From positions 10,044,001 through 10,108,000 of the forward strand of contig NC_091967.1 of the NCBI RefSeq assembly GCF_036711975.1: a DNA stretch of 64,000 bases, written 5' to 3'. Made by a program: the position numbers and the translations under genes. Source of the stretch: Onthophagus taurus (Eukaryota; Arthropoda; Insecta; Coleoptera; Scarabaeidae). Numbering within the stretch: position 1 is the first letter of the stretch; the number at the start of each line of letters is the position of its first letter. The notes below the pieces were generated by a model. The model ran no database searches and was not told the origin of the DNA. It worked only from the letters and a program-made list of their open reading frames with translations. Positions 3,101 through 64,000 of the stretch are shown here, piece after piece.

Positions 3101-6100
3101 CAATTTAACATACATATCATATCATGATTTTTAAAAACACAGTCAACATGATTTTTTGAAAATTTAGTAGTTTTACTTAACTTATAAATTTGACAATTTC
3201 GTGTTTAATAATTTTTTCCTAGAAATTTCAATAATATTATCTGATAATTCTTATATCATATCATAAACTAGAATCTTTAAGCTACAATTTAACATACATA
3301 TCATATCATGATTCTGAATAATACAGGAAATATGATTTTTTTTAATTTCGTATTAATCTTGATTTAAAAATTTGACAATTTCGTTATTAATAATTTATTT
3401 CTGAAAATTTCAATAATATTATCTGATAGTTTTTATATCAAATCATAAACTGGAATCTTTAAGCTACAATTTATCATACATATCATATCCTGATTCTTAA
3501 AAACTCAGTAAATATGATTTTTTGAAAATTTCGTATTATTTTTGATTTATAAATTTAACAGTCTCTTTCTACTATATTTTCGAATCCCATAGTCAAACCG
3601 TAAACAAACATTTTGATCTCTTTGTATTCTTGTTCTGTGGACTCTATTAATACACCCAAAGTTCCATAACATGATATCTAAACACGCTCTCCTTCAATTC
3701 AATTTACCTTTACTAATTTTATCGTATCAGGGTAAGTTTTATGCGAGAAATTTAACTTAATAATGCTAACAACGTTCACCACACAGCTAATACTTGTTTG
3801 GACCTGAATGTGCCTAAGGTAACCAAGACCGTTAATTTAAATTTCAAGAGTATTGAATAGTTTTCGTACTATTGGTATTTTCACAACATAACAAAATGAT
3901 TAAGACATGATTAAAATTAACTTAAGTTCTAAAGAAGAATTTTCAATTTTATTAGTTTTAAATTGCCAAAGTTAAAGTGAAATTAAAAATTTCTTATTGA
4001 TTTTTTTTCGTCGTTCATGGTTGTAGGATTAATGAAGAGAGAGATAAAATTTTAAATTTAAGGTTTATTATTTGTAGCGTAAAAAAATTAATAATAAAGT
4101 TCATCCAAATGGAAATTTGTTCATTCCGTAAGTAATTTCCAATAAACTATAAAATATAAATTCAGGATATAAAGACCGGAGAATATAAAACCAATATATT
4201 GCATAAAACACTATAACCATATCTAATCACCTCTATTCTAGTATACATTTCACAGTTTACGAGCCATGAAAAACCGAAAATCCAATAAACAAATGACAGT
4301 TTGGGTTGAAAACATTCATCAACATCCATTTCATCGTTCTTTGTCACAATAACAACAGTAGTATATCTAGATATTTGTATTATATCCCAAGAGCATTTCA
4401 AATACACAATCTATACATTTATTTACTAAGAGAAACTACACTGTTATTTATTTAGGATTGATTGTTTATGTCGATTTCTATTTAGACTTGAACATCATAA
4501 TTATTTTGATTTTCCTTTATTCTTATTAAACGAAAAGTATAAGTCGACATTCAATATTGTATATCTTTTCTTGGTAGTTCTCATAAATGTCGGTAATGAC
4601 GTCGCAGCAGGTTCGCATTCGAAGCAATGTTTGGCCGTAGGAGGTAGAGTTAAATAAGGAAACCCAGCCGTGCGAAATACTGCCAGAATGAGATTAAGGT
4701 TTGAAGGGGGGAATGACTTATAGAACCTGTCAGTATCACAAAATCCTTTTTCGATAGCAGCATTATTACTTATTTCTTACACAAATCGGCTTTTCTAATG
4801 GAGTATTTTTATTACCTTAAGGATTAGTATGTAAAAGCTTTTAGAACAAATTAATTTAACCTCAAAAAGTAAATCTAAATTTCAACAAAAAATCTTTCAC
4901 AAACGATTATATTTTATTGCACTTTTATTCGACCAATGAACCAATTAAAGTTAAGGGCCTTTTCTAAAGATGTTTACTCAAAGTTGATCGTGTTAGCTTG
5001 CAACTACCCTCGTTTACTTTAAAGCATCACCGCACTCGGTTCCGCCAAAAGAAACTTTCGAGAAACCTATTATCCAACGGAAAACTTGTCGTCCTACAGG
5101 AAACAACCGAAATAGAGTTTAGATTTTACGCTGTTGGATATTTTTTTATAAATCATACTTCAAGATTAAATAAGTTAGTTGTTATACAATATAATTAGCG
5201 AAATTGAATAAACAGTTTAAGTAGAATAATTCATTAATACTAATATCAACTTATTCATTAAACTAAACTGATTATATGGTTAGTTGTATAATAGGAAAGT
5301 TTTATCAAAATCGATTAGTTTGTAAACATATGTATGTGTCAGTTAAATTAATGAACTCATTTTCAGTTTAATCCTGAGTTGACTTTGCTTCTATTTAGAA
5401 TTTATGTGGAAAATTTATTTTATACACATAGTAGACTAAAACGGTTTTTGTAGCACTTAATACAAAAATTTCCTTTTATTTTGAAAAGTTTAAAACATCG
5501 TACTAAATAATACATTTCACAAGACATATTTTCCGAGTAGCATAAGATGGGAAAATGCCTTTACATTATAAGAGAAAATTACATGGGCTTTGTGCCGTAA
5601 AGCGCAGACGTCTTTTATGGTTTCTTGCTAACCATGTCCGTAAAACTAGATTCCGTAACACGTCCTGCACTTTTTTGTTGCGAAAATGTATCAAATTGAA
5701 CTACGTTTTAACCGTAATGATATTTACTTTGTAAAAGATATCCTGGAAATAACAAAGGCATATTTTAATCTGATAATAAAATTATGTAGTAATTATAACA
5801 GTTTTAGTTGATAAAAGGGTAAAATAATAATACACAGAGAAATAAAAAAGAGAACAATTTGTGTCCTCATATCCGTGAGTGCTTTACGGAGGTATAATTA
5901 ATATTTAATTGAAAAATAATGAAAAACGACATTATTTGGACCATGTAGTGAAGTTTTATAACGAGAAATTGACGCTGAACTTAATGGATTTTGTTGGCAA
6001 AGCAGTAAAGCAGACCGTCATGAATATTAACATTTACTAATTGGAGAATTCCATCTCTGAAAGAACACATCGTTTGAAACAATGTTCTATTTTGAATTGC

Positions 6101-33200: not shown

Positions 33201-36200
33201 TAAATTAACATAATTAATGTACAAGATAATAAAATGAAAGTGACTGGCCAAACAGACATAAAAAAGCGACTTAAACTTTATTTAAACAGCCATTTTTAGT
33301 GATTCCGTGATCGTAGTCTTAAAATTTGTAAAGAAAATAGGATTTCGTGCTTTAGGGTTAAAGAAATAGAAAAAAAGAAAATATTATGTACACACACACA
33401 CATCCCTCTATGTATATTATTTATCATCACAAATTACAATAATTGTAAGGTGTAAAAACTTAACAAAAATAATAGTATATTTTTATTACTAAATACTTCG
33501 GTTACTAAAATAAAGATAATATGTACAAATACTGGAATGTTTATAATTTTATTTATCTAACCAAAACCGCTTAAATTAATTTTAAATAAATCAAAACTTG
33601 AGGTAAGATAAATAAAACCATAAAAATTGTTTTTTTTTTCTCTAAAATTCAAGTTTAAATAAAATTCATTCAATTTTTTTTTAATTTGTTTGCTGTATAG
33701 AAACTGAAATCGGTACTATTCTTATTTGTTGATTACTTTCCGATGGAGTTACTTCAATAACATCCGCTTTGACTTCTTCATCTTCGTTATCTTTTAAAAT
33801 CCGAACGGGAATAAATTTCCCATTTGCGATTTTTCTTCTATCGCCCAAACGATTCGTGTCTTGTTGTAAAACCCTCACGTTTACATAATTAGAATTTTCA
33901 CCTTCCAAAAGTTCATTTTGTAAATCGACTTTTTCTTCCGGCGGATGATTCGTTTGGAAAAGTCCCTCCAAAGGAATCGTCGCCGTTTCAACCGAATAAA
34001 AAGGTTTCGGCGTAATCTTTTTCGAAGAAGAAACAGAATCAATTCGTATTTGATTCACCTGAATCCCGTTTTGATTGTTACTAACGGGAATATCAAAATC
34101 ATTTTTTTGATTCGTTTCATATTTTTTATCTTGTCTCGTTATGTTGGTTCCATTTTCACTTTCAACCACTTTTATTTCAACAACCCTCGATACAAGCAAT
34201 CTACTTTTATCAACTTTATCATCACCATCAGTTTTTTCATCGGTTCCATTTTTAACTTTCGACGTAACTTTTACAATTCGATTAATTTCAACGATTTTCT
34301 CAACTTTTTTCTCATCAATTTGGTGTGGGTAACTCTTTGTTGTCATTTCATTTGGATTTTCAGTTTCAGCGAAAATATGATGGAGAGTTGTAACTTTTTC
34401 GGTTGTTGTAGTTGATGATGTTATTTTTTCAGTGATCTCATCTTGTTTTGTTGATGTTAATAAACTTTGTTCTATTGAGTTCGTGGTGTTCGTTTCGTTT
34501 CTAAACGGAATATTTGGGAATGGAGTATTCATTTTTCTTGTTTTATTAAATAAATTACGATTTCTTTGACTAACGACTGTTATGTTTATATCAGGTAAAT
34601 TTTGAGAAACAGGTGCGGGTGTCGTGAACTTTTTATATGTTCTTGTCGATGGTTTTTGGGACGAAACATCTTCATTACTTTCATATTCATCTTCATTATC
34701 CGATGGTTTTAATATAATATAACTAGGTTTATAACCCGGTTTTGAAAACAAACTTGGTTTTTGTTTTTCTTTTTCGTCGACATCATCCAATTCATCAACA
34801 TATTCATCTGATTCATCGATTATTACATCATCTTTCTCTTGATTTTCTGTCGTGGAACTAGAAGAAAATCTCCTTGGCGTTGGTTTATATTTATTAAATC
34901 TGTTAGCTTTAATTCTTTCAGAAGTAAAAGGAGACGATGTTGTTGAAGTTGTTGATAAATCTGATTTAAGTCTTCCTGTAAATTTCGGTCTCAATGCAAT
35001 TGGTCTAAACAATCGACTCGGTTTTCTTGTTGTTGTCGTCGTTGATACATATTCAGTTGAAGTTTCAATTGAAGAAGAATCATCCAAAGCTGTTGTTGTT
35101 ATCAAATCATTAATAGTTGTTATTAAATCTTCTTGATTTGTTGTAATTTCATCATTTTCAGTCGTAAACTCATTTACATCACTTTCAAATTGAACATTTT
35201 CTATGGTTTCTTCTTTTTCCGTGGTTGTTGACAATCTTTCAAGTTCTTTCTTTCGATGTAAAAGTTTACTTAACGGTGACTCAGTTGTTGAGCTTTGACT
35301 TGATTTATCACCACCTAGAAGATTGTTTATACCACCATATTGCTTATTTTTTAAATATAATCGACCTACTCTTGAAAATAATGTTAAATTAGATGATTCC
35401 CCATACCTCGTTGAAGGATGATTTATCGAAGAAGTTACTACTTTTGGTTTAAACGTTGTGTTTAATATTTCTTCTGTCGTTTGTTCATTTTCAAGCGTTT
35501 CTTTAATCTTAGTACTTAAAGTTGTTTCTTCATCATTTAATGTCGTTTTGTTATCAGTTGAAGTTGTTTCATCATCGCTTATTGCCGTTTTATCATCGTA
35601 TAAAGTTGTTTCATCATCCATTATACGATGATCATTTATTATTGTTGTTTTATCATCATCTAATATAGGTTCATCTTCGTTTAAAGTTGTTTTATCCTCA
35701 CTTAACGTTGTTTTATCATCACTTAACGTAGTTTCATCATCACTTAAAGTTGTTTCATCATTCCATAACGAAGTTGTCGAAATAATTTCTTTCAAATCGA
35801 TAGTTGATGTTTCCTTTAAATCTTCTTCTTTAAACATTGTTCTTAAATTATCCAAAATACTTGTTTCTTTCTCAAATTCTGTTGTGGTTTCATAATTTAT
35901 TTTATCTTTTACCTCAACATTTTCCTTTTCTGTACTGATTGTGCTTTCTTCTTCTTCATTTTGATTTAAGTTATAATTATCGGTTGTTGTTGTTGTGCTA
36001 TAAACTGTAAAAGTGGGAATTCTTCGGTTGTACAATGATTTATTTAAACGTAAATCTTCTTGGAGAGGTTTTTGGGTTGATGTAATAAATCTTTGTTCAT
36101 TTTTTTCTAAGTTTGTAATTTTTCTTCTTCTGAATAACGGTCGGTTGGGTTTAAAACTTGTTGGTTTTAAAGGTTTAAAATTATCTTGATTCTCGTCGGG

Positions 36201-39200
36201 TTTAGTTTTAATTTCCGGTTCATCTTCGTCTTCATTCAATTTTTTGGGCAAAGATAATCTTCTAAAACCGTATTTTCTTTTCGGTTCTTTGTTTAGTAAA
36301 GAAATCGTACTCGTTTCGAATTTTTCATTTCCAAAACCAGTGGTTGGTTTTAATCTAGAAATTATTTTTTTAAATTTCGTTTCAGTTTCGGTTGAAGAAC
36401 TTTGAGGAACTTCTGTGGTCGTCAATTTCCTGATTATTTTACGAGTACGAATTGAATAGGGTAACTCAGTCGTAAACTTTCTTTTTTCATCGAAATTGAT
36501 CGATTTAAATGATTTATCTTCTTTCGCAAATATTATACCTTCTTGTAGATTATTTCGAAAATTTTGGCTGCTTTCTCTTACAATTGATTCTGAAAGTTTA
36601 ATATTTTCACCTTCTTCTTCATTATCATCAGCTTCTTCAGATTTATCATCATCACCATCTTCTTTATCAACTAACACTTTTTTCGTTTCTAATATTTCAT
36701 TTCGAAGAGTTATTTTTTCTTTATCATCATCTCCTTTGTTTGTATTTATTGTTGTTTGAGCTTCAGTTGGTAGACTTTCATTTTCAGTTACCAAAGTTTC
36801 TTTTTCCAACCCAACTTTTTCTGATGTTAAAATTTCCTTTTCTGTAACACTAATTGTTGTTGGCTCTGTACTTGTTGTTGTTGATGTTGTACTTGGTGTT
36901 GTTGATGTTGTAGTTGTACTCGTCGTTGTACTTGTTGTATGAGGTTTAATTAACTTTCTCAAAACGATTCTTCTTCTTGTTGGTAAACTTCGTAACGTTG
37001 TCGTTGTTGTAGGACTTGTTATTGATTGATTTGTTGTTGATTGATTTGTTATTGTTTGACTTGTAGTTGATTGACTTGTTGTCGATTGACTTATTGTTGA
37101 ATGAACTTGTTGAGTTTCTTCACTAATATTGAAATTTTTTCTGAATCGATTAGGATTTTTAAACGCAAGCGGTCTACCAAATTTCTTAATCACAACTTTT
37201 TCAGTAACATCCTTCCCATTCTCATCATCTTTACTTTCTCCAACCAATCCAACTTTACTTGTACTAGTTGTTGTACTTGTTGTTGTAGATCTAAATCGAT
37301 TTGATCTACCAAATTGAGCTCCATTTAACAATTTTCTAGCTAACGGAATCGTTCTTGATCCAGTTTTTTCAATTTCATTTGGTTCTGAAGTAGTTGTAGT
37401 GGTAGATGTTGTGGTAGTTGTTGGACGTCTTCTCCTACCATTATTTCTTCCAGAATTTAAATCTTTTAAGTCAACTGCTAACAACGATGATAAATCTGAT
37501 ATTTCTGCCACAATATCCGGACGATATTTACGATTATATTCGATTATTTCATAATCGCTGTAAGGTTTTTCGGTAACTTTAATAACTGGACGTGGTCTAA
37601 TCGTGGTCGCGACAGTTTGATGACCTGTAAATCTTGATTGGCCTCTTCCGCGAATCCTTTTATTGATTTGATAGTCATCATTGGAAGTTTCCGTTGAAAA
37701 TCGATGTTTTGATGGAAATTTATCGTCGTCTAATACATCATTGTTCCCATCCTCTTGTTGTTGTTGATTAAAATTTTTATTAATACCTACACTCACCTTT
37801 AATCTTTGATTTTCTAAAATGTCTTGAGTTGTTGTTTTTGTTGTTGTTGTTGTCGGCACAGATGGGGTGAATATTGTATGTTTTCTTTGATTATTTAAAG
37901 AAAACGGTCTTGGGTCAGCTAAAACCGGTATTTTCTCGGCTTCCTCTTCTTTTTGACTATTAATAATTTCCCTTATGTTATCAACAACATCGTTCAAACC
38001 ATCCGTTTTATTTATAACATTATTCAATTCAGTTATATTGCTATGTTCATCCGTATTTTCCACCGTATTTTCTTCCACTGAATTTAAATTTTCATCAATT
38101 GATGATTGCGTAGAAGATATTTCAGGTGAATATGATGATGAAGCTTCCGTGGAAGTCGTCGTTCCTCTGCTTCTTAATTCAACGTATCTATAAAAATAAA
38201 AGGAAATATTAAAATAAAGTTTTCTCTAATTTTAAAATCATCCTGAGTGTATTTATAGCGATTAAAACAACTCATTATTATCAGAAATCTCAGTTTTCGT
38301 TTTATATAAACATCACGTTTTAGTTCCTATAAATTCATTTCACATTTCTTTAGATATTGAATTAAAATACCACACAATTGAGAAATACGAAAATTTTATC
38401 ATAACTAAAATTCTTTTTTAATCATTTCGTTTAAAATATTACCTTGGTGTAGTTATATTTTCTTCGATATTCTCATTATTCGCATTTTCTTTAGATTTTT
38501 CTGTTGTAGGTCTAAATCTTCTAATAGTAACATACGGAGACGAGGTTGTAGATCGAGACTTGGACTCATTCTCTTCGTCGTCAGCATAACTTTCTTTGTC
38601 TTCCGTATCATTTATTTCTGTCGTAGTCGTTATTCTTTGTCGTCTAATTGTTACATATTCAGGTTGAGATTTTCTAAATGGCGATGACCGTAAACGAGTT
38701 GTTGGTGGTTCAGAAATTGCATCTTGTTCACTTTGTTCATCATCTTCGACGGGTTTCTTTATTTCTTGTTCGCTAGCTTCAGTCGACGGCCTAAATTGCA
38801 CAATTTGTTATAACTATTTTTATAATTACTTATTAATTTTTACCTGGAACGAATTATTGATGTGTATTGAGGACGACCTCGCGTTTTTGGACTTTCAACG
38901 GATTTTTCGACTTTTTCATTATCTATTCCTTCGTTTTGTGGGCCTCTGCTATTTCTTCCGATTGTATTGTACCTAAAAACGTTTTTTTTTCACGATAAAT
39001 ACAAAAAAAAATCATTTTGTACTTACGTTTTAAAAGATGTCTTCTTTTGTTCATTTAAAGTGGCAGTAGCTCGTCCAAGAACACGTTGATATAACGATTT
39101 ATTTAAACTAGAACGAGTCGTCGCATCTAAATTAGTATTTCCGTTAACATTTCCACCACTACCATCAGATATATTTAATTGCTTCTCCAATTCTTCAATG

Positions 39201-42200
39201 CCCCCAGCTTTTTTGATCAATTCGATTAATTCTTTGATAACCCTTGGATCTTGTTCGGCGTCTTTAGCGCCTCCAAGAATTTCGTCGTCGTATTCTTCAT
39301 CGTATTCGTCTTCAATTTCAGGTTCTTCGGTTGTTGTTACTGTGGTTCGACTAGTTGCTGCTGTAATTTTTGGTGGAGGTTTTCTTGTTGATGAAGGGGA
39401 TGTTGTTGTGGTGGTGGTTGTTGTTGTTGATTTAGATAGCTTTTTGTTGCATAAAACGTTTTGGGAGTAATCACAAGAAGCTGCTGCTTTATTGAAATAT
39501 AAACCTGCGGGGCAAGTAAATTGATGGGCCACGATTCCAAGATCGGAAGGTCCGCTAAGACACCAGAAATATTTTTTGCAGTCTTTGGGGTGTGGGAAAA
39601 ATCCTTCGTCTTCACATTTAAAGTCGCCCCCACCATCCGGGGTGCTTGGAGGAGCTGGGGTGGTATAACTAGGTGTAACTACCAAACTACTAATTGAGCT
39701 AAGCGTCGTTGTTTGTTGCTTCTTTTTACTTCTCCCACTTGCAGGTCGTCTTTTTTGTTTACCATCTTCGGTAACTCTATTGATGTTTTTCCTTCTTGAG
39801 TTGGGTCTTGGGCGAATCGAGGGTGATGTTTCCGTTGTGCTTTCAATTACTTTCGTTGTTCCCCTTGTTTTGGATCTATTTTTGATCGGTTTTTTGGTTG
39901 TCGCTAATAAGCTGGCGTCTGTTAAACCGTAAGCTTTTAATAAAGCTTCTTTAGCGGCTTCGATGATGGGATACGGTCGTTCACCGCATTTCCCTCTAAA
40001 ATCATCGTTATCGATGGACCAAAACATTATTCCACCCAAACCGTTTTTGGCGACATATTCAGCTTTTTTGCTTGCTATTTCTTCATCATCGTAACCCACC
40101 CATTGGTTATTATTGTAAGCGTATGGCCCCATTGCGTCTGGATATGGTGCTTCTATAGTCCAATCTTCCGATTTTAAGTTTTCACAAATCTGTAATCAAA
40201 AATTTTTTGTTTTATAAATAAATTGAAAATGTTAGGTGAAATAGAGACTTCGTAATAAGCAAGATAGCCGTTTTCTCTTGTAGCTTCCCCCATTTCTCCT
40301 GGTCCGTCCGCTGGAGATCCGATTTCGTTTGCATCCGGGTTGTATAAAGTGTATGATCTTCCATAAGTCGGTATTCCAAGGACTAATTTAGATTTATCGG
40401 CCCCCATTTTTACATAGTGTTTAATGGTGTAATCTATATTTAGATCAATGTCGAGACTGTATTCGTTTTCTTCTTCGATGGGATAAAGTGGAGAATGATG
40501 ATTAACCGCTGGTTCATAAGCTGAATGATAATCGTAACTTAAAATGTTCATCCAATCCAAATATCTAAATACAAATAAATATGTCAGAAGAAATTCGCCA
40601 AAAAGAGAAGCCACTTACTCATTTAATTTTGGTATATCATATCCTTTATTGATATATTCGATACCAGCCGGAACAGCCATGGTTAATAACAACCTAGGTC
40701 TTCCGGTTTTTTCCGATTCCCTATCGAATTCTTCACGTAATTCCTGAACTAATTGAGCATAATTGTCACGATCTCTCGCTTTACCGCCATCTCGAAAGCT
40801 TGGGTATTCCCAATCCAAATCTAATCCGTCGAAATGATTTTGACGAAGGAATTTGATCGTGTTTTTAACAAGTTCTTTTCGTCGGTCCGCATTTGCCACC
40901 ATCGGTGAGAACCTCGTCGATCCTTCGTTCCATCCTCCGATAGCCAAGAGTGTCTTTAAGTTTTTATTGTACGTTTTCAAACCAACAAATTTTGCGTAAC
41001 CACCTAAAAATATTAAAATTTTTGATTTAAAATGAAAAAAAAAAATAAATTGGTGTGGATCTGATAATAAATGTTTGCCTTGAACTTTTTTTTTGTTAAT
41101 TCTACAACAAGTTTTCGAATACCATAAATATCAAGGATAAAATTTTAAACTAGTTTCAGTTACTCACCTTTCTCTATATCTTGATATTTATCGAACGGTT
41201 TTAATGTGTTTTCTTTGGTGAATCCTCCAAAGGCGTACACTAAATGCGTGCAAAGGTAAGGATTGATATTTTGAGGATTGAATTTGGCATCTCCTGGTCT
41301 GTACACCGACCAATTTGTGTAATAACAAACTATTCTTACTTCTTTCGCATCTATAAGATAAAATTCAAAATTCATAAGGAAACGTAAATTAAGGCGTTAC
41401 GTATACAATATGGAGTGTAAGAATGAGCCAAGGAAAATACACCATACATAATATACTTCTTACTCTCTTGTATAGTTCAAGGTTGGAAGAACGACATTCT
41501 TTCATAGTGACCTGTACTTTACTCAAAATGTCCACATAAGTATTTAATGTTATTGAAAATATTTGGGTGATTTTTATTGTTTAATTGGGTTATCAATACG
41601 ATTTAACGAAAATATCAAGGTTATCATTTCTTAGCACGTGGACACTTTAATTAATTGTCTCAATATTTTATTTATGAGGGAATGTGAAAGGCCATGAAGA
41701 GAGGAAATGGGAACAAGTTTCAAGTTTTCTGCCAAGTTAATTACCATAGATTAAAAAACAAAAATGTATTAAAAAAAATTATGTGATAAAATTTACAAAT
41801 TAATCATTTAGTGTAGGAAGCTAACTCGTAAAAATAGCCGATGACATTATTTCCTGGGTTATTATAACGGTCATTTTTGTTTGCCAACCACCATGATCCA
41901 TCAAATGTTTTCAAATCAATCATAACTTAATTTTTATTAAACAAAAACAATTTTAAAAGAATTATTTTTATTTAAAATCAAATAATTTTGAAACTCTTTG
42001 TTCGTTTTTTTTTATTTTCTTGTGACGATGTGCCGTCTGTTTAACCGGAAGAGCAATATCCTGCAATCTAAACACGTTTCCTTAGACGGTTTCTTTGAAA
42101 CATTAATAAAATAAATTCTGTGGAATATCCCATGAATTTATTTTATATTAAATTCCATAAACAAAAGAAAATGATTGCATTTAAATTGTTTTAACAAATG

Positions 42201-52311: not shown

Positions 52312-52878
52312 TTAAACGTAACCATTCAAAAATATTTTTAAAAAATCTTCGTACTCCAACGAAATAGTCCCAATACATTCAAGATCGCGGACTCTAAAAG
52401 CTTCCGTATATTTCTGGATTTCAACACATGCCATAATAAATTCATCCAAAGTCATTTCATTCGAATTTTCACCAAAAACTTTCATAACCAATTCAACAAA
52501 CTGGTTCGATAGTTTATAACCCATTTGAATCAAAGCATACGAAAATTCTTTAGCGTCGATCGTCCCGGAGTTGTTTAAATCATACATCATAAACACATGT
52601 AACCATCTATTTACGTAAGAGCACAATCGTTTAAACTCATCCAAATTTATAGTTTCGTTTCTGTCTCCATCGAAAAGACTCATCATTAATTTACATGCTT
52701 TTTTTGAAAAGTTTTTATTTTGCGACCAATATAAAGCTTCTTGTAATGATTTTAACGTTAAAAATCCAGTGTTGTTATTGTCTACTTTTTTAAACCATTC
52801 TTCGACTTCTTTTAACGTTTCTAAAGGTTTAGCATTTAATATTGAGGAATTTGAATCGGTTACGGTTTGATTCGACAT
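52312..52878 (-). CDS. Penta-EF-hand calcium-binding protein (ALG-2/sorcin-like), intronless
   Basis: 188 residues in one exon. There are five EF-hand units with the spacing of PEF proteins: (1) DNNNTGFLTLKS, which lacks the usual acidic residue at loop position 12; (2) DGDRNETINLDE; (3) DLNNSGTIDAKE, fully canonical; (4) a degenerate ENSNEMTLDE unit; (5) a degenerate LECIGTISLEYEDF unit. PEF proteins dimerise through EF5 and bind membranes or Pro-rich targets when EF1 and EF3 load calcium. Here EF3 and EF2 look most able to bind. The N-terminus is short and polar, without the long Gly/Pro tail of peflin or sorcin. No introns, so retro-origin is possible. AATAAA motifs lie just after the stop on the minus strand (52299-52304 and 52270-52275). 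Confidence 0.8.
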   Translation of the reverse strand: MSNQTVTDSNSSILNAKPLETLKEVEEWFKKVDNNNTGFLTLKSLQEALYWSQNKNFSKKACKLMMSLFDGDRNETINLDEFKRLCSYVNRWLHVFMMYDLNNSGTIDAKEFSYALIQMGYKLSNQFVELVMKVFGENSNEMTLDEFIMACVEIQKYTEAFRVRDLECIGTISLEYEDFLKIFLNGYV

Positions 52879-53057
52879 TTTTGATAATTATTATAGTGTA
52901 GAGTTTTAAAATATTTTTATCTTCACTGAATAGAAATTTGTGTTTTTGTGACGTTCTAAATTGTGAAAAGTTTGTGACAGATGCAAAGTCATAACTTTGA
53001 TTGATAGATATTGACTTAAATATAAGAGGTACTGATACCTTTGATTATATATAATAT

Positions 53058-55169: not shown

Positions 55170-55716
55170 ATGGGCAAATATTGGGCCTTATTGTGCATGT
55201 TTTTATCGGTTAATGTTGCTACTTTAGCTTCGAGACCGTGTAGTAAAGAACTTTCTATTAACATAAGTGCTGGTGTTTTTGATGATAAAACAAACAAAAT
55301 CATTTTTGATAATTTAACATTTCCGAAAGAATTAACTTATTACGAAGATAATTCGGTTTATGGTTGCGTTTGTGACGTTACAGTTTGCGTGAGAAAATGT
55401 TGTGATGTTGGTAAAGTTATCGTTTCAAACGAAACTGATAGCATGAGTTGTGAAGAAAGTGATGATCCGTTAAATATTAATAACACATTCAAATACATTT
55501 ATTATAAAGATGATACATGTGTATATGAAATAACCGATTTCGAATTAGCATCAAACGGAGAATTGACTGAAAATGATAATGGAGAGAGTGTAGTTCATAA
55601 TTTTTTGGAGTTTTGTATTGATACAAAATATGAGCTTGGAAATCGGAAAACTATCGTCCTCGGTTGTGCTGATATTGAGGTCTTACCAACTGAAAGAAGA
55701 GAACATGTACATGTAG
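55170..55716 (+). CDS. Methuselah-type GPCR ectodomain exon 1
   Basis: 547 bases, 182 codons plus one base, ending GTAG|GTAAGT in phase 1 at a Gly codon (VHVG). A signal peptide (MGKYWALLCMFLSVNVATLA) precedes the mature start RPCSKEL. The Methuselah ectodomain pattern is present: C..........I, then DNLTFPKELTYYEDNSVYGC, then VCDVTVCVRKCCDVG and a later FCIDTKYELG block. Met h-type ectodomains fold into beta-rich subdomains held by five disulfides and bind peptide ligands outside the cell. If the donor is ignored the frame runs to 56006, adding 96 residues with one weak hydrophobic stretch. These do not look like a receptor core and are better read as intron. No transmembrane exon follows in the next 2.5 kb. 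Confidence 0.85.
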
Positions 55717-58261
55717 GTAAGTTGTTCTATAAACAAAAATCGATAATTAAGTCATTTTTAAATTTATATATTAATTTGTTTAAGTCAATAAAAGTAAGTC
55801 TTGAAAAGATATTTTATTACGTTTTATGTCCATTGCTAAGTAGAACACAGCTACCTGGCGAATTACTAGTAATACTGGCACACGTGTGTTTAGGTTTGTT
55901 TTTTTTTGATCTAAATATAACCAGAAAAAAATCGTTTCTAAACTTTGCGATGGTGCGTATAATTCAGTCTTGTAATAAATTATATTGCTTTTGTTATGCT
56001 TTTTAGAATTTTAGAACATTATTAATAGCTTTATAGTCTTGTATACTATTAACTCTATGTATTATTACTTTTCAGGAATTAACATTTTCGGTGGTAACAT
56101 AGTATTTTTTTAAGCATCGCACCGGTCCCCCATATGATTCTAAATTTTGTTTTACAATGTTACGTGTTAACGTTCTTTGAAGTTCTGGATGTAATTTTTA
56201 TCGCGTAAGTTAAGGTGATCTATAAATAAACGCAGCTCTTGTTTAAATTTGCTGCTTATGCAAAATGTCGCTAACAAAAATTCGTAGGTATCATATCCTA
56301 GAAGTCAATCATAGAATCATAGAAGTTTTTAATGGCAAAAGAAAATCCCCAAAATAACGTCATCCCTAATAAAATTAATCAAAATAAGACACATAATTTA
56401 TCACTGGATTCAAACCAGTAGGTTTGGTTTCCACGAAAGTTTATATTATGTTGTACGAAACAATTACAAGATAATATTATTTCACACTCGCTTTATTTAT
56501 TATGTTCTACAGAAATAGAATATGTAGCTTTTTTAGATGAACATGCAAAATCGTTATCAACAACAAAATTATATATAAAATCGAAAATGAAAATGAAAAT
56601 CGAAAAGGAGTTAGGCCGAAAAGCAGATGGTAATCTTACTCTACAAATTACCTACATACCGAACCGTTCAATGTTAAATGAAAGTTTAATCAAGAAACAT
56701 CAAGACAGTCTTAACTAGGTTAATTTGCTAAGTTACTTTTCTTACTTAGTTTTAACACTCTAAATACGCTTAACATACTCCGCTTTCCTTACTCTAGTTA
56801 TAAACTTTTATGAAACCTTCTGCTAAGTGCTAAGTTTTATAATACGAATTTGTAAAAAAATATTACCCGCTACAAAAGAAAATTTCGGCCGTCTTTCCAA
56901 GATATATTGCTGCAGTTCCAATCATATCTGCAATTCCAATGGTTTTGAAAACTTCACAACGCGATGTTTCCTTCATTATTGCCTCCATTATTCCAACTTG
57001 AATACTCCAACATATAATTTTCAATTTCTTACAAAAACTGCTTCGTAAACTAGCTGTTCATCTGATGCTAAAAATCGCACTTAAGCAACTTGTTTCCTCA
57101 CACCCGTAACATTTTTAAATTTGGTATGTTGCTTTGATACAAGAGATCCAATTTTACATTTCGAAGTCAGTTAAATCCCCAATACTGGGCTCAAGAAGAT
57201 ATTTAGCTAACAAAGTAGTAGGATTCAACACATTTAAACCATTTAAGAATTCAGTTCATACATGGTCTTCGCCTAGTCTTAGTCACCTTTGAGACATTGT
57301 GTAACCCATGTTGGAGATCGAAGTAGTATGTTTAATAATTTTTTCATAAAGTTGAGCGAAGTTATTTATCATCATAGTTTTTAAAATCACTATCAGTTAT
57401 CCTTTTTAAAAACAGAACATATTTTATAATTTAAACATATATTTAAGAGAAGCTATAAAGAACTGCAATCTCTCATTACGTGTTGCTCTCTTCAAAAAGT
57501 ATTACACAGCTTATCATTAAGTAGTTACATATGCAAGACAAAAATCAAGCTTTTTGTAATGAACGGCAGAAGTAGGTGCAATATCATCATTGCTATAAGT
57601 TACCACAAAGTGGTAATGAAACTTGTCAATAATTTCAAGTACATTAATACAGCAATTGCTATCATTCGAAAGGAAAAATATTTGCTCGTTTATCATATTA
57701 ATAAAAGTCACACACATTTTGAGTCTGATATTGTTTTCAACAATGGCCAAAGAATCTTGCTGATAATTTTGCAATTCTGCCTTCGAAGAAAATATTTATT
57801 CATAATTAAGTCATCTAATTTTAAACATTGCCAAATAGATTATATAAGCTATAAAAGGCTTATTATTACAATTCTTTTCGTATTTATTATTACATTGTTT
57901 TTCCCTTCAAACTTTCATAATTATAATTATGAATAAACATAAAAGATTAGATTAGACGCTATAATCTTGAGGAAATGATGCACTTTATAAGAACAAAACT
58001 TTTCCTAAACTCATTTGTAAGAATAAGCGGAAAACACACATGATTAATAAACTTTCAACACTTCATAAACCTCAATTTCCAATTTCTATTTTAAAATCGA
58101 ACGTTTCAAGAAAATGAAATTAACGTCGGCAGTGTTTTTTAAATCCAGATCATTGTGGTTTAACATTTTTCCGGTTCAACGCTTAAGCATAAACTTCCCG
58201 TTTTTAATCAGCTTTTCGGTGTTAATTAAATCAGTCCAGTTTTTAAACGGCATTATAAAAA
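55717..58261. other. Spacer between ectodomain exons 1 and 2
   Basis: 2.5 kb searched by eye for transmembrane-core exons in both strands; none was recognised. The open frames near 56827-57048 (both strands) and 57517-57936 (both strands) are without known domains; a mobile-element origin for the latter is possible. Confidence 0.45.
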
Positions 58262-58856
58262 ATGTATAAAATGATTTTAAAAAATTTGTTTGTTTTAATT
58301 TGGTTGATAAATCCAATTTTCGGTGATTACGATTTTTGTCCATCACACTTAATGGTGGATATATCAATTGGGGAACAATATCCAAATGGAACCATAATAA
58401 AAGATGATTTAGTGTTCTTTGAAGAATATTACAAGATTGTAAATAGAACGCGTTGGGGTTGTTTAAGTGAGCATAATAGATACGTGAGGAAATGTTGTCC
58501 AAAATCGCAATTACTCATGAATAATGAGACAATCCATACATGTGGAGATACGAATGAAAAGTTTTCGTTTATTACTTATGATGGTGTTGATTTTGTCGGG
58601 AACGTGGATTTAAATGAAACGGATTTTTATGTTGTTTATAACAAATATTGTGAGTTCAGTGGTTATTTATTGGATCCTTTTCATTATGAAACAGATGTGT
58701 TTTTCTTACAAACTGATGGGACGATTCTATATAATGATACATTCGATTATAGTTCCATTGGCGATTTTTGTGTCGATAATGTGTTAAGAAACGGAACAAT
58801 TTATTTTTCAGCATTAGTTTGCTTTCCTCCACCACCGTTAGATTTGATTTCATATG
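58262..58856 (+). CDS. Methuselah-type GPCR ectodomain exon 2
   Basis: 595 bases, ending TCATATG|GTACGT in phase 1 (ISYG). A TCAGTC initiator-like hexamer lies at 58231-58236, 29 bases from the ATG by its A. The signal peptide MYKMILKNLFVLIWLINPIF is followed by GDYDFCPSHLMVDISIGEQY. The core reads RWGCLSEHNRYVRKCC. Two cysteines present in exons 1, 4, 5 and 6 (the C of VC and the C before VRKCC) are replaced by Ser and Tyr, so one disulfide was probably lost as a pair. The later YLLDPF, FFLQTDGTILYND and FCVDN blocks match exons 4 and 5. Only about 150 bases separate its donor from the start of exon 3. Confidence 0.85.
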
Positions 58857-58974
58857 GTACGTATTTAATTGCTTTTCTTAAAGGTCATTCGAATTTGATT
58901 TGTTTAGTTTAAACAAAACTTAATTAGTTTTTTAAGAAATGTACTCATACGCTATGAATAGACTTGAACCAACT

Positions 58975-59008
58975 TCAGTTCGAATTTATTCATCATTCAG
59001 AAAAGATG
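58975..59008 (+). promoter_or_regulatory. Core promoter (Inr + DPE) of ectodomain exon 3
   Basis: TCAGTT at 58975-58980 (A+1 at 58977) and AGATG at 59004-59008, which fits RGWYV at +28 and overlaps the start codon at 59006. Same spacing as at exon 1. Confidence 0.4.
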
Positions 59009-59396
59009 TTCGTTTTAATCCTTGTAGCAAACATTTTGATACCAACTACTTTTGGTGTTATCATTCAAAAGTGTTGTGGCGTGAATTCAATTTTAAACGA
59101 CGAATTATCCTGTGTTAAATTAAACGATGAAATTAGTTTTAACGTTAACGTATATTATGGAAACGTGCTTTTAGAAAACTTCGATTTTAACATTGAGTAC
59201 GGTTTTAATTGCAATGAGGGTTATTTTAAAACCAATATAAGTGAAAAAATATTCGTGCAATACAACGGCGATTTACATTATAGAAAACTTATCGTTCCTC
59301 TTGGTCGATACTGTCTTGAGTATGATTCAGACGAAGAAAAATTCAATTTAATAGCTTTAATTTGTGGGAAAAGTGAAAAATATTTGCATTTCATTG
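59006..59396 (+). CDS. Methuselah-type ectodomain exon 3, short form
   Basis: 391 bases, ending TTCATTG|GTGAGT in phase 1 (HFIG). The start MFVLILVANILIPTTFG is preferred over an upstream in-frame Met at 58964 because it begins the signal peptide and lies just after the initiator. The mature part starts almost at once with IIQKCCGVNSIL, which corresponds to the KCC..(N)EI region in the middle of the other copies. The whole first half (about 60 residues, including the YGCVC block) is missing. The second half is intact (YNGDLHYRKLIVPLGRYCLE). The splice donor is good and the frame is open, so it may still be used as a mini-ectodomain. Its donor is only 238 bases from exon 4. Confidence 0.75.
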
Positions 59397-59634
59397 GTGA
59401 GTAATAGTAAGTAGTTTTAGAAATAAACCGGAAGCACATGCATAAAAACAATGCACTTGTATTAAATAAATATAAAATATAATCTCGTTTTCTAAAAGAA
59501 AAAATTACCATACTATCGTAATCGGAAAATAACTTTATCTATTGCGGTTTTGGCTTTATAATGACGAAATGTGATGACAAATACAATCGCTGTTATTACA
59601 AGCAAATGTATTAAAAGCTCCCATTCTAGTAAAA

Positions 59635-60253
59635 ATGTTTTGTATTAGTGACACTATTCGTTCTCTAATTCTACTTTATCTCCAAATACATTACACATCA
59701 TCAAAAATAGAAACGCTCTGTGATTTTGAAGATGCCGTCGATATAACTTACAATTCAACTCTACTTCCTACTGGAGAGATATTCCATGAGGGTATCAAAT
59801 ATCCACAATACTACACTTTCGTTGTAGGCGATCGTTTTTACGGTTGCGTTTGCTTTTTAAAAGGTTGCGTGCAAAAGTGTTGTAAAAACGACGAAATATT
59901 CGTAAACAAAACGTGTATGCGCCGTGCAGAATCCGAATCAATTTCGAATTTACAAGTTTTCGATGGAACTAAGGTGGTTGGTGTAGTCGAAAAATCTTTA
60001 TACGTTTTTTATGGTACTCGACGGTGTGCTAAGTCCGAAATAAAATTGGATCCGAATGTGTGTATGGAGGATGAGTATTATCTTCAAAGTAATGGCGATC
60101 TATTTATGCCGTATGCAAGAACTTTATCTTACGGAACTTTTTGTATCGATCGAATCGAAGGTGAAGAAGAATTTACAGTTATCCAATGTGTATACTACGA
60201 TGAAGAAAGATTATTTACAAACGGGAGGTATGATGGATCGGTTGTTTCAACAG
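59635..60253 (+). CDS. Methuselah-type GPCR ectodomain exon 4
   Basis: 619 bases, ending ACAG|GTCAGT in phase 1 (VSTG). Signal peptide MFCISDTIRSLILLYLQIHY, then ...LCDFEDAVDITYNSTLL. Core YGCVCFLKGCVQKCCKNDEI, then LDPNVCMEDEYYLQSNGDLF and a FCIDRIEGEEEF block. N-glycosylation sites include YNST and NKTC. No clear TCAGT initiator was found upstream, unlike exons 1, 2, 3 and 6. Structurally it is among the most complete copies. Confidence 0.85.
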
Positions 60254-60300
60254 GTCAGTAGCAGATCTATAACAAATAAACAATGTTTCAATAATTAAGA

Positions 60301-60406
60301 AATATTATATTGAAAACCGGAAGAGATTACAATAGAGAAACAATTTATATTTCAGCATTAAATTGCAACCCACCACCATCAGATATGAATGTTTTATATT
60401 CATATG
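60301..60406 (+). pseudogene. Relic of the 3' end of an ectodomain exon, donor preserved
   Basis: One frame reads RETIYISALNCNPPPSDMN followed by VLYSYG, then |GTACGT at 60406/60407. It closely matches the end of exon 2 (GTIYFSALVCFPPPLDLISYG|GTACGT), down to the same donor hexamer and the CATATG before it. The upstream part is absent (a stop lies just before), so this is a truncated duplicate of an exon-2-like copy rather than a usable exon. Confidence 0.75.
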
Positions 60407-61759
60407 GTACGTATATTTAATATATTATCTATATATTATTTTTAATTAATATCATGAATCGCAACAAAAAATTCATCAATGATATTACTATTAAATCTTG
60501 ACTTAAATCTTTCAATAATAACTTATTTCATACAAAAATTCCTGATTGACAAGTTTTAGCATTATCCCTTACTTGTTTGTACACTTCATTCTTAAGGTTT
60601 AGAAACAAATCATGAAATTGTCAATCATATTGTGGTGCCTCGGTTTCGACTTTATCAGGTGGAATTATAAGATGTTTTGTCTAATTCAGCCGAGGTTGAT
60701 TGCGGTCCAAGCACAGTGATATTAATATTACATCAACTTGAATCTGATCATCATGTTGTGACAGCTTGGATAGAAACGACCTCAGACTGTAGATCTTTCA
60801 CTAATTAAGCCGAGGTTGCTTGCAGTCGAGAGTTAGTGATTAAAATTATATTAACCTAAAATAGATCATCATATTGTAGCGCCTCGGAAGCAAGCGACCT
60901 TGGTTTTATTATTTGAGGTTGCACATTTTTTATGACTAATTAAGGCGAGATTGCTTACAGCCGAGGTTTAGTGATTAAGATTATATCAACATCAAACTGG
61001 TCATAATATTGTAAAACCGTAATCCGACGTCAACATTATACCAACCTCAAACTGCTCATCGTATTGTGGTGCCTCGGTCGCAAGCAGCCTGAGTTTTATC
61101 AGCTGGAAGTGTAGATTTTTTGACTAATTAAACCGAGATAATTAAGCCTGAGGTTCAATGATTAATTTCATATCTACTTCATTTTTTGACCATCCTGTAT
61201 AATTACGTTGTATTTGTGACGATTTGAAGTGAAATCATACAAATTTTGCTTGAATGTTGAAGTTTTGCAAAAAAAAAAACTGTTAGAAAAAATGAAAATT
61301 AAAATAGCTGGAAAACGAAAAGCTCTAAATATCAATAATCCTAATCAAAGTCAATCAATTTTGTTGTACAGAATTTGGACATGTAATAAAAACCATAACA
61401 TTCCATTTAAAATATCTTTTTGGCGAATACTGTAGATTCTACCAACGTTTCGTGCCTAAACAGGTCTTCAGGCATGACGTTTTATAATATCAATCTGATT
61501 CTGATATATTGCCTATCTTGCCAAATTAATCTTTATAAATATATCTATAACAACAACGTTTTAAACAAACATTTTTCGATAAGTTTACTTAAACAAAAAA
61601 AAAAGAATATTAGATAAGATTCTAAATCATATGACGTTATTTCTTCATTTTCATCGGTTTCTTTATCAATGAACAAAAAACCACACATAACCGAAACCAA
61701 TATGACACATTTTAGATAAAATCAGAGCGGATTCATAATTTAACGTAACTATCGCGGAA
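60407..61759. other. Spacer between ectodomain exons 4 and 5
   Basis: Contains the degenerate GCCTCGG/CCGAGG repeat cluster at about 60600-61200. No transmembrane-core exon was recognised. An open frame at 61229-61435 is low-complexity. Confidence 0.45.
60600..61200. repeat. Degenerate repeat cluster with GCCTCGG ... CCGAGGTTGCTTGC blocks
   Basis: ATTGTGGTGCCTCGG-like blocks near 60629, 60752, 60873, 61011 and 61063 alternate with (T)AATTAAGCCGAGGTTGCTTG-like blocks and GTGATTAAAATTATATCAAC stretches. Direct repeats are about 120-140 bases apart, and the CCTCGG and CCGAGG cores are inverted relative to each other, so each unit can fold. It is probably an old tandem or MITE-derived cluster. 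Confidence 0.6.
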
Positions 61760-62375
61760 ATGGTCGTGTTCGTTATACTATACTGCGTTATTCTCTGTGT
61801 AAAAACGGTGTTTTCAATTCAATTGCCTTGTCCTATCGAGGAAACTGTTATTATCAAGCTGGATAACGACTACGATGACATCATGTCCACCAACTTAACA
61901 AATATATCATATCAGGGATTCACTTATTCCGAAGATAAATATTTTCAACTTGATGATGATAACACAACGATTTATGGATGTGTTTGTCTTGTAAAAACAT
62001 GCGTTAAAAAATGTTGCCCAGAAGGAGAGATGTTTATAAACGATAGTTGTGGATTAAGTGATGATTTAGTGAAAAGTCTAGATCCGGAAATTTATGGAGG
62101 GACTGAAGTGATTAATGTTACGGATACATCCAAACATATAATAACAGTTAATTTTAGTTGTGAAAATAGATATAGATATATGTTGGATCCGATAACTTAT
62201 CCGGAATATGATTCGTTTTATTTACAAGTGGACGGATCTTTATACCTACCTGGCATTCAAGAAAATGTTACTGCCGATTTTTGTTTTGAATTTATAAATG
62301 GTTCTGATGACATTTGGGTAATTAGATGTGGATATGCTGATGAAGAATACCAAAGTTTTAACGAAACTATAATAG
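61760..62375 (+). CDS. Methuselah-type GPCR ectodomain exon 5
   Basis: 616 bases, ending ATAATAG|GTAACT in phase 1 (TIIG). Signal peptide MVVFVILYCVILCVKTVFS, mature IQLPCPIEETVIIKL. Core YGCVCLVKTCVKKCCPEGEM, then a YMLDPITYPEYDSFYLQVDG block and a FCFEFINGSDDI block close to exons 2 and 4. Several Asn-X-Ser/Thr sites (NLTNIS, NDSC, NVTD, NGSD). An AATCAGAG motif at about 61720-61727 is a weaker initiator candidate. Confidence 0.85.
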
Positions 62376-63029
62376 GTAACTAATTTTTTTGAACTCGCTT
62401 TACATAAAATGCTTACAAAAATAGTTATTTACGTAACAAGTTATGAAAAACACAATATTTTATCTAATGCCATTGAAAATGCAATTTTTGTTCAAAACTT
62501 GACTTATTCTATTAATGACAGATGTCAATTTGTAGTTAGGTAATAAAATTCATTACGACACTAGTGATGTAATGAAATCATTACATCACTAGTTATAAAA
62601 AAAGTGACGTTACATAATGTAAAATTTAATATTCATAATGGAATTAGGTAAAGAAATTTTTATTTAGTTAATCTTTTGATATTATAAGGAAATTATTAAT
62701 ATTAATAAAGTACAGGCAACTTTTTTCACTTGTTTAATTGGTTGTCTATATTAAGTTTTAAATCAAATACCGCCTTTTATTTTTGTTGTAAAATTAAATA
62801 GGATTTAACGTAAATAAAACCTTATCTGATTATTTCTGATATCATAAACAAACTTAAGACATAAAATTTCTTTTTAAATTTTTCTATATCTTATCGTTTT
62901 TAAACTTTTTCCTACCGGTATATTTTACTTTGAACCAAAACAAAATTTATGTGTGCTTAAGTTTTATAAACAAACGCTCTAATTCAAAACATCAGTTACT
63001 GGACTACCAACAAACCGCAAGCATCGATA
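62376..63029. other. Spacer between ectodomain exons 5 and 6
   Basis: AT-rich, includes the perfect palindrome at 62560-62593. No transmembrane-core exon. A TCAGTT initiator for exon 6 lies at 62992-62997. Confidence 0.5.
62560..62593. repeat. Perfect 34-bp palindrome
   Basis: ACTAGTGATGTAATGA and TCATTACATCACTAGT are exact reverse complements separated by AA. Weaker inverted similarity continues outward (ATTACGAC / GTGACGTTACATAATG). It may be a MITE remnant or a dyad-symmetric protein-binding site in the spacer upstream of exon 6. Confidence 0.8.
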
Positions 63030-63594
63030 ATGTTTAAAAAAAATTTAATTAAGTTATTTTGTGTCGTTTACGTTGTAAATGCCCTCGAAAATCTATGCGG
63101 CGAAAAGTATAGTGTTGACATAACAGCCAGTGAGCATCTCCTTAATGGAAGTAAAGTATACGATAATATCACATACGAACCGAAGAATTATTTCGAAGAT
63201 GCCAAAAATAAAAGGATTTATGGATGTTTATGTGATTTTAAAAAATGTATAAGAAAATGTTGCGGTTTAAACGAAATTTTTAATGGGACGACGAAAATGT
63301 GTGATTTTAACGATCAACATCCGAACATTTTACAAGCTTTAAATCATTTCGAATTCTTACGAAACGATGTCCACATTATTTCACAAAAATTAATGTGTAA
63401 GAATGGAACAACTAGATATATTGTACGATCGTCTCATGTTGATTTAACAGAAGATATTAAATTTGTTTATAATAATTTGATTATTGGTATTGAAAATTAT
63501 TGTTTGGATTATATTCGATCGCATGATAGACCAGATGCATTAATTTGTGTTGATCTGAACCAATATAAACATAATATTCCTCATGTAGCAATGG
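63030..63594 (+). CDS. Methuselah-type GPCR ectodomain exon 6
   Basis: 565 bases, ending GCAATGG|GTAGGT in phase 1 (VAMG). A TCAGTT initiator at 62992-62997 puts the ATG 36 bases after its A. Signal peptide MFKKNLIKLFCVVYVVNA, then LENLCGEKYSVDITASEHLL. Core YGCLCDFKKCIRKCCGLNEI, later LMCKNGTTRYIV and YCLDYIRSHDRPDALIC. No transmembrane region follows before the window ends at 64000, so the array or its shared downstream exons continue to the right. Confidence 0.85.
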
Positions 63595-64000
63595 GTAGGT
63601 ATTATTAAATTATTTTATTACGACTTATAAAAATTTGTTCTTCATTCAGTGCTAGATTGTTGTATATTAAGCTTAATATGTACACTGCGTTAATTAATTA
63701 TCGTACCCGACGTTATCATGGCAAGTATGCAACCAATATCACAGTATTTTTATTGCAATACGCGATTTACGTATGATGCGTATTGCACTGTCATATTGGT
63801 TGCATACTAGTTTACAAATTTTAATCAATTTTTTCCTCGAAGACTGCGATATTTTTTTTATAACGTAGAATGTTGCGTTGATTCTGAAACTGTCTTCAGT
63901 TTTTCTCCATCACGTCCAGTTTTCGAGATATACCCAAAAATGTGGAAAATCGTAAATTAAGAAACATAGTAACGGTTCATGTTCAGTATATTTTTTATTT
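63595..64000. other. Right edge of the window after exon 6
   Basis: Non-coding, with the hairpin at 63724-63808. No further ectodomain or transmembrane exon begins before the end. Confidence 0.5.
63724..63808. repeat. Inverted repeat / hairpin
   Basis: AGTATGCAACCAATATCACA on the left pairs with TGTCATATTGGTTGCATACT on the right (one mismatch). TGCAATACGC pairs with GCGTATTGCA, with about nine extra bases in the left arm and a loop of about 13 bases. It may be a MITE remnant or a precursor-like fold. Confidence 0.75.

Follow-up and report, generated by a model that had tools for sequence, protein, structure and literature searches.

The subject of this report is a 64-kb stretch of the genome of the scarab beetle Onthophagus taurus (NC_091967.1, positions 10,044,001 to 10,108,000; hereafter the window, whose own numbering is used throughout) and, near its right end, an array of six tandem exons predicted to encode ectodomains of the Methuselah type. 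All six are read on the forward strand: E1 (55170-55716; 182 codons plus one base), E2 (58262-58856; 198 plus one), the short E3 (59006-59396; 130 plus one), E4 (59635-60253; 206 plus one), E5 (61760-62375; 205 plus one) and E6 (63030-63594; 188 plus one). Their lengths of 547, 595, 391, 619, 616 and 565 bases are all multiples of three plus one, and the gaps between them measure, from left to right, 2545, 149, 238, 1506 and 654 bases. The donors, with a slash at the exon end, are TAG/GTAAGT, ATG/GTACGT, TTG/GTGAGT, CAG/GTCAGT, TAG/GTAACT (the weakest of the six) and TGG/GTAGGT. Such an array had been claimed by an earlier sequence-only reading of the window, and its coordinates, lengths, donor hexamers and gaps were all reproduced on recomputation.

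The six frames are open from end to end. At the stop rate of the flanks (0.0706), 9.2-14.5 stops would be expected per exon and none is observed in any of them; the chance of 130-206 open codons at that rate lies between 2.8e-7 and 7.3e-5 per exon. In every exon the phase-1 donor is also the top-scoring GT from -90 to +60 (7-11 GTs each), as judged with an approximate scoring matrix. An equally strong donor would occur in a random 150-nucleotide (nt) intergenic stretch with a probability of about 0.014, 0.10, 0.047, 0.019, 0.245 and 0.10 for E1 to E6, respectively. The product of these values, calculated by hand without counting in the shared phase, is about 3e-8, and it assumes independence although the exons have a common descent. 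The donors fall 10-21 residues past the last ectodomain cysteine, and the first transmembrane segment of Methuselah is expected to begin soon after that position. Each exon had been described as ending at a glycine codon split by a good donor; the good phase-1 donors are indeed there, but the residue need not be glycine, since that is the read-through codon and splicing fixes only its first base, G.

Each exon has its own ATG, as had been noted, and an in-frame stop precedes all six, with 1, 1, 16, 19, 7 and 20 codons in between (E1 to E6). Because a single codon separates stop and ATG in E1 and E2, these two, at minimum, are starting exons, and a reading as internal, mutually exclusive exons is ruled out for them. 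In E3 and E4 an AG lies shortly upstream of the ATG, and the rejection of the internal-exon reading is less certain there. We scored 200 nt upstream with a model of TATA box and initiator, the matrices of which were approximated from the fly consensus, and obtained p = 0.68, 0.44, 0.88, 0.58, 0.09 and 0.005 for E1 to E6. Several upstream regions look promoter-like by eye; six separate promoters, as a candidate finding, were dropped at a joint p = 0.16. The one region that stands out holds a candidate TATA box and initiator before E6 (62965-62999, forward strand; p = 0.005), with the initiator A at 62994, 36 nt 5' of the ATG. Many insect promoters lack a TATA box, and for this reason the result argues neither for nor against separate promoters.

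Homology and ectodomain features

Three of the exons match Methuselah_N (PF06652) above the Pfam cut-off (E4, 1.5e-10; E5, 1.5e-7; E6, 4e-6), two fall below it (E1, 0.001; E2, 0.0087) and E3 has no Pfam match. A profile of all six retrieved the solved Methuselah ectodomain (1FJR/2PZX) from the PDB at 4.8e-11, as did E4 alone at 6e-7 and E5 alone at 2e-4; E3 alone found nothing there at E-values up to 10. The exons are tied to one another by paralogue alignments (E4-E5, 1.5e-20; E2-E4, 1.4e-9; E1-E6, 3.6e-9; E3-E6, 6e-5), even though the other five share only 22-29% identity with E4. On this homology the set as a whole is assigned, by its Methuselah_N ectodomain, to the Methuselah/Methuselah-like family, E3 through its paralogues alone (E6, 6e-5). 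The description of the locus as six Methuselah ectodomains thus stands for the set; individually only E4, E5 and E6 pass the Pfam threshold, and E1, E2 and E3 are tied in by paralogue alignment. No relatives of E5 alone were confirmed in viral_contigs (6 pattern matches) or genome_contigs (50), and none of E4 alone were found in a phage collection; these collections do not represent insect genomes. A structure prediction from the six-sequence alignment reached a mean predicted local distance difference test score (pLDDT) of only 49.7.

The Methuselah framework comprises ten cysteines forming five disulfides, and a putative ligand-binding region has been placed at the interface of the D1 and D2D3 subdomains (PMC3655951). 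In our alignment six cysteines are invariant across all exons. The full framework of ten is present in E1, E4, E5 and E6, with one extra cysteine in E4; E2 retains eight, and E3, which is truncated at its N-terminus, six, the first four being absent. The disulfide pairing is presumably 29-83, 85-90, 94-188, 95-106 and 150-209. On this assumed pairing, the cysteines missing from E2 would make up one complete pair (85-90) and those missing from E3 two (29-83 and 85-90). Loss of cysteines as whole pairs would fit folded proteins rather than decay, which in two cases is suggestive only. As the N-terminal part of E3 is largely gone and the ligand region is placed at the D1/D2D3 interface, the E3 head may have another mode of binding, or none. 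Between one and nine N-glycosylation sequons occur per exon. A signal peptide of its own had been attributed to each exon; in a shuffle test based on hydropathy only, a signal-peptide-like start is clear for E3 (p = 0.012), E5 (0.0025) and E6 (0.037), borderline for E1 (0.053) and E2 (0.086) and weak for E4 (0.22).

Sequences between and beyond the exons

All six frames of the region from 54 to 64 kb were translated, stops being written as X, and compared with Pfam at E-values up to 1. Only Methuselah_N was found on the forward strand and nothing on the reverse, with no seven-transmembrane core on either. Ten open stretches picked by hand (seven in the gaps, two left of E1 and one inside E2) likewise gave no seven-transmembrane match at E-values up to 10. 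In a hydropathy scan of 53-64 kb, lone hydrophobic stretches were scattered over both strands and no open stretch of at least 22 codons held more than one strongly hydrophobic segment, the sole exception being a spurious frame that lies within E2. This bears out the earlier remark that no seven-transmembrane exon is recognizable between the ectodomains. The gaps after E2 and E3 (149 and 238 bases), already considered too small for a core of about 250 residues, are indeed so, as is that of 654 bases after E5. Constant exons of their own are therefore lacking between the heads, a conclusion that is strong for E2, E3 and E5 and weaker for E1 and E4. To the right of E6, the remaining bases (63595-64000) gave no match to the ectodomain profile or to Pfam.

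The frame of E1 stays open for 96 codons beyond its donor (55717-56003) and contains one short hydrophobic stretch. In simulated sequence of the same composition, a run of at least 97 open codons arose in only 0.0015 of 4000 trials; runs of at least 90 codons occur at 2.2% of 7317 nearby start positions, which are not independent and include the extension itself. Part of it (about 55800-55930) resembles by eye the region of the first two transmembrane segments of Methuselah receptors and was considered as the relic of a core. Yet it has no seven-transmembrane match at E-values up to 10, its sole match being weak and unrelated (0.061), and it scores as non-coding. Its codon score is -0.413, compared with -0.36 to -0.49 for four other non-coding frames, -0.012 for a fifth (56422) and -0.12 to 0.12 for the six exons, and its synonymous score is -0.093 against a median of -0.094 for 59 intergenic open reading frames (ORFs). 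We reject the extension as a core relic, yet not fully, as so long a run is improbable by simulation. A retained-intron product of it could be made.

Array history and surrounding sequence

Between E4 and E5 lies what appears to be the 3' end, left as a stub, of a seventh exon resembling E2 (60295-60406, forward strand). Its frame is open from 60295, and it keeps the last cysteine and the donor ATG/GTACGT. It matches E2 in blastn at 82.5% identity over 40 nt (60339-60378), the likeness continuing by eye to the donor, and the remainder of the exon is gone. A seventh exon was thus probably once present at this place, from which it follows that exons have been gained and lost in the array. When the six-exon profile was run against 2273 six-frame ORFs of at least 18 amino acids from the whole window, a scan that does not detect the stub near 60339-60406, it retrieved only the six (next best E = 0.29), so that E1 is the leftmost member of the array in the window.

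The same gap contains diverged repeats at 60615-61139, with copies about 120-244 nt apart and a motif like ACTAATTAAGCCGAGGTT, which probably represent a mobile or satellite element that has degenerated; together with the stub they take up about two fifths of the gap. Just past E6 (63724-63808) is an inverted repeat of 22 nt, 95% complementary with a 41-nt spacer, that resembles a small foldback element. Near the left end of the window (2196-3308), a match of 19-24 nt to part of E5 occurs in five copies (at 2552, 2734, 2918, 3101 and 3285), and their spacing of about 183 nt points to repeats arrayed in tandem.

The window is AT-rich (31% GC). Its other genes, which suit an animal, encode a MAS20-type import receptor, a GTPase of the Ras type, a chitinase that has a chitin-binding domain and an EF-hand protein, the frame of which (52312-52887, opposite strand) is the closest Pfam-matching open frame to the left of E1. 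A Thr/Ser/Glu-rich open frame of 1514 codons (33681-38225, reverse strand), with no Pfam match at E-values up to 0.01, adjoins the chitinase frames on the same strand (39023-41130), and they are possibly one gene.

Discussion

We propose that one gene for a Methuselah-like G protein-coupled receptor (GPCR) uses the six exons as alternative first coding exons, which would share a single downstream seven-transmembrane core, and we give this reading a probability of about two in three. It is preferred because it is the simplest account of the same-phase donors, the missing cores and the intact frames. A transcript would start at one of the six exons, which would supply the ATG, the signal peptide and the ectodomain. 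From its phase-1 donor, splicing would then skip whatever first exons follow and reach one set of seven-transmembrane exons to the right of 64000. In this way a single signalling body would be combined with six or more exchangeable ligand-facing heads, and the array would have arisen as exons were duplicated in tandem and some copies were lost again. Slightly less firmly, we consider it probable that a single insect Methuselah-like GPCR gene yields at least six receptors differing in their whole ectodomain by the choice of first exon, including one with a minimal head that lacks the N-terminal module (E3). In this reading the splicing is inferred, as are the acceptor and core common to all heads, a promoter for each of them and the diversity of ligands. 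That frames have remained intact in exons with so little identity to E4 implies, as far as can be read from the sequences, purifying selection on each of them.

Several observations weigh against this proposal. The shared core itself, which would lie beyond base 64000, is not seen. A core cut into small exons could evade the Pfam scan, which had no positive control, and the gaps of 2545 and 1506 bases are less firmly empty than the others. As a group, the core-promoter signals of the six upstream regions are at background, that of E6 excepted. Synonymous codon usage fails to set the exons apart from intergenic frames, and E3 is without the N-terminal module. Moreover, unspliced reading stops after 2-4 codons in four of the six exons, which would suit a secreted product too. 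The sequence-only reading had favoured the same model of alternative first exons joined to one transmembrane module. The same-phase donors, the lack of a detectable core between the exons, the three short gaps and the in-frame stops before each ATG speak for it, while the module would lie beyond base 64000 and the separate promoters are postulated.

Secreted decoys had been offered as an alternative, and they remain the main rival, though an unlikely one. The exons would encode soluble ectodomains that trap ligands, produced by read-through of the donor or by intronic polyadenylation, and the donors would be used rarely or never. Counted from the donor G, the open run before an in-frame stop is 2 codons long in E3, E4 and E5 and 4 in E6. 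Over both strands of the whole window, with the six exons counted in, 36 of 177 comparable GGT sites meet a stop as early, which gives p of about 0.02, calculated by hand for a pattern noticed post hoc. The loss of the first module from E3 would also be compatible with secretion. A purely secreted protein, however, has no need of the strong same-phase donors kept in all six exons, and E1 and E2 run on for 96 and 18 codons before a stop. Secreted ectodomains and receptor heads can also coexist at the locus.

The other alternative raised earlier, that of dying copies, appears improbable. Tandem duplicates of a receptor gene would have lost their cores and be decaying, as the gain and loss of copies (truncated E3, stub of the seventh exon) and the improbably long open run with its in-frame hydrophobic stretch after E1 might suggest. 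It is disfavoured by the kept donors and by frames that are intact despite deep divergence, with no stop where chance would have placed many. Nor does the E1 extension help it, given the lack of a seven-transmembrane match, a codon score like that of most non-coding frames and unlike those of the six exons, and a synonymous score at the intergenic median.

Slightly less probable again are several complete receptor genes, the cores of which, split into small exons after E1 and E4, would have been missed, the other heads being dead or spliced to those cores. A compact core could fit into the 2545- and 1506-base gaps, and the scan is not fully sensitive to small exons; no seven-transmembrane match was obtained, however, in six frames or in the ten picked stretches, and repeats and stub already occupy a good part of the gap between E4 and E5. 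Least probable of all is a reading in which at least two cores lie downstream, each serving only some of the heads, or in which separate transcripts are spliced together: the window cannot tell one downstream core from several, but nothing in it requires more than one, and a single core is simpler.

Methuselah receptors are described as having one N-terminal ectodomain followed by one seven-transmembrane domain (PMC4768249, PMC3655951); the ectodomain is reported to be arthropod-specific (PMC4768249), and a moth survey describes Methuselah genes of 7-11 exons (PMC12653341). The exons of the array share with these GPCRs the homology of the ectodomain, up to ten framework cysteines and, in most cases, a signal-like start, and they end near the place where the first transmembrane segment should begin. 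In contrast to them, the array consists of six ectodomain exons without a core, each ectodomain being contained in one exon.

Tandem variable first exons, each with its own promoter and joined to constant exons, are found in the clustered protocadherin and UGT1A loci. These are not known to be homologous to Methuselah, and the variable exon of protocadherins includes the transmembrane segment. Unlike in these loci, separate promoters of the heads are here only part of the proposal. Insect gustatory and odorant receptors (GRs and ORs) form a different family, not known to be homologous to Methuselah receptors or to be GPCRs. In their genes, long first exons stand in tandem and are joined by splicing to C-terminal exons that they share; examples are TcasGr214 with 30 variants, AglaGr99 with up to 17 and BgerGr60a-m with 13 (PMC6175461, PMC6720082). 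Like the array, they combine tandem long first exons with a proposed splicing to common exons, and some of their copies are pseudogenic. The variable exon of GRs and ORs appears to carry most of the membrane protein, whereas here it would carry the extracellular head only. The analogy with protocadherin and UGT1A, drawn by the earlier reading, is better replaced by one with the GR and OR genes, which are the closest precedent (PMC6175461, PMC6720082).

The earlier reading knew of no description of this layout for Methuselah receptors. Among the literature matches listed, we found no report of alternative or shared-exon Methuselah genes, a weak negative given that most subscription journals and genome annotations lie outside the coverage. 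PMC3426547 mentions Methuselah and, separately, alternative first exons; Methuselah is absent from PMC8956072, and PMC5083930 mentions neither exons nor splicing. Tandem alternative first exons are already known from insect GRs and ORs; a class B GPCR that employs them and exchanges nothing but its ectodomain would be new.

Outside Drosophila, the ligands of Methuselah ectodomains are poorly settled. In the fly, Methuselah affects lifespan and stress resistance (PMC3655951). If the proposed architecture is correct, one body with several heads would amount to a natural domain-swap experiment, able to show which properties of the receptor sit in the ectodomain. It would also account for a growth in ectodomain diversity that needs no copying of whole genes, and gene counts of the family based on seven-transmembrane domains would underestimate the diversity of its receptors.

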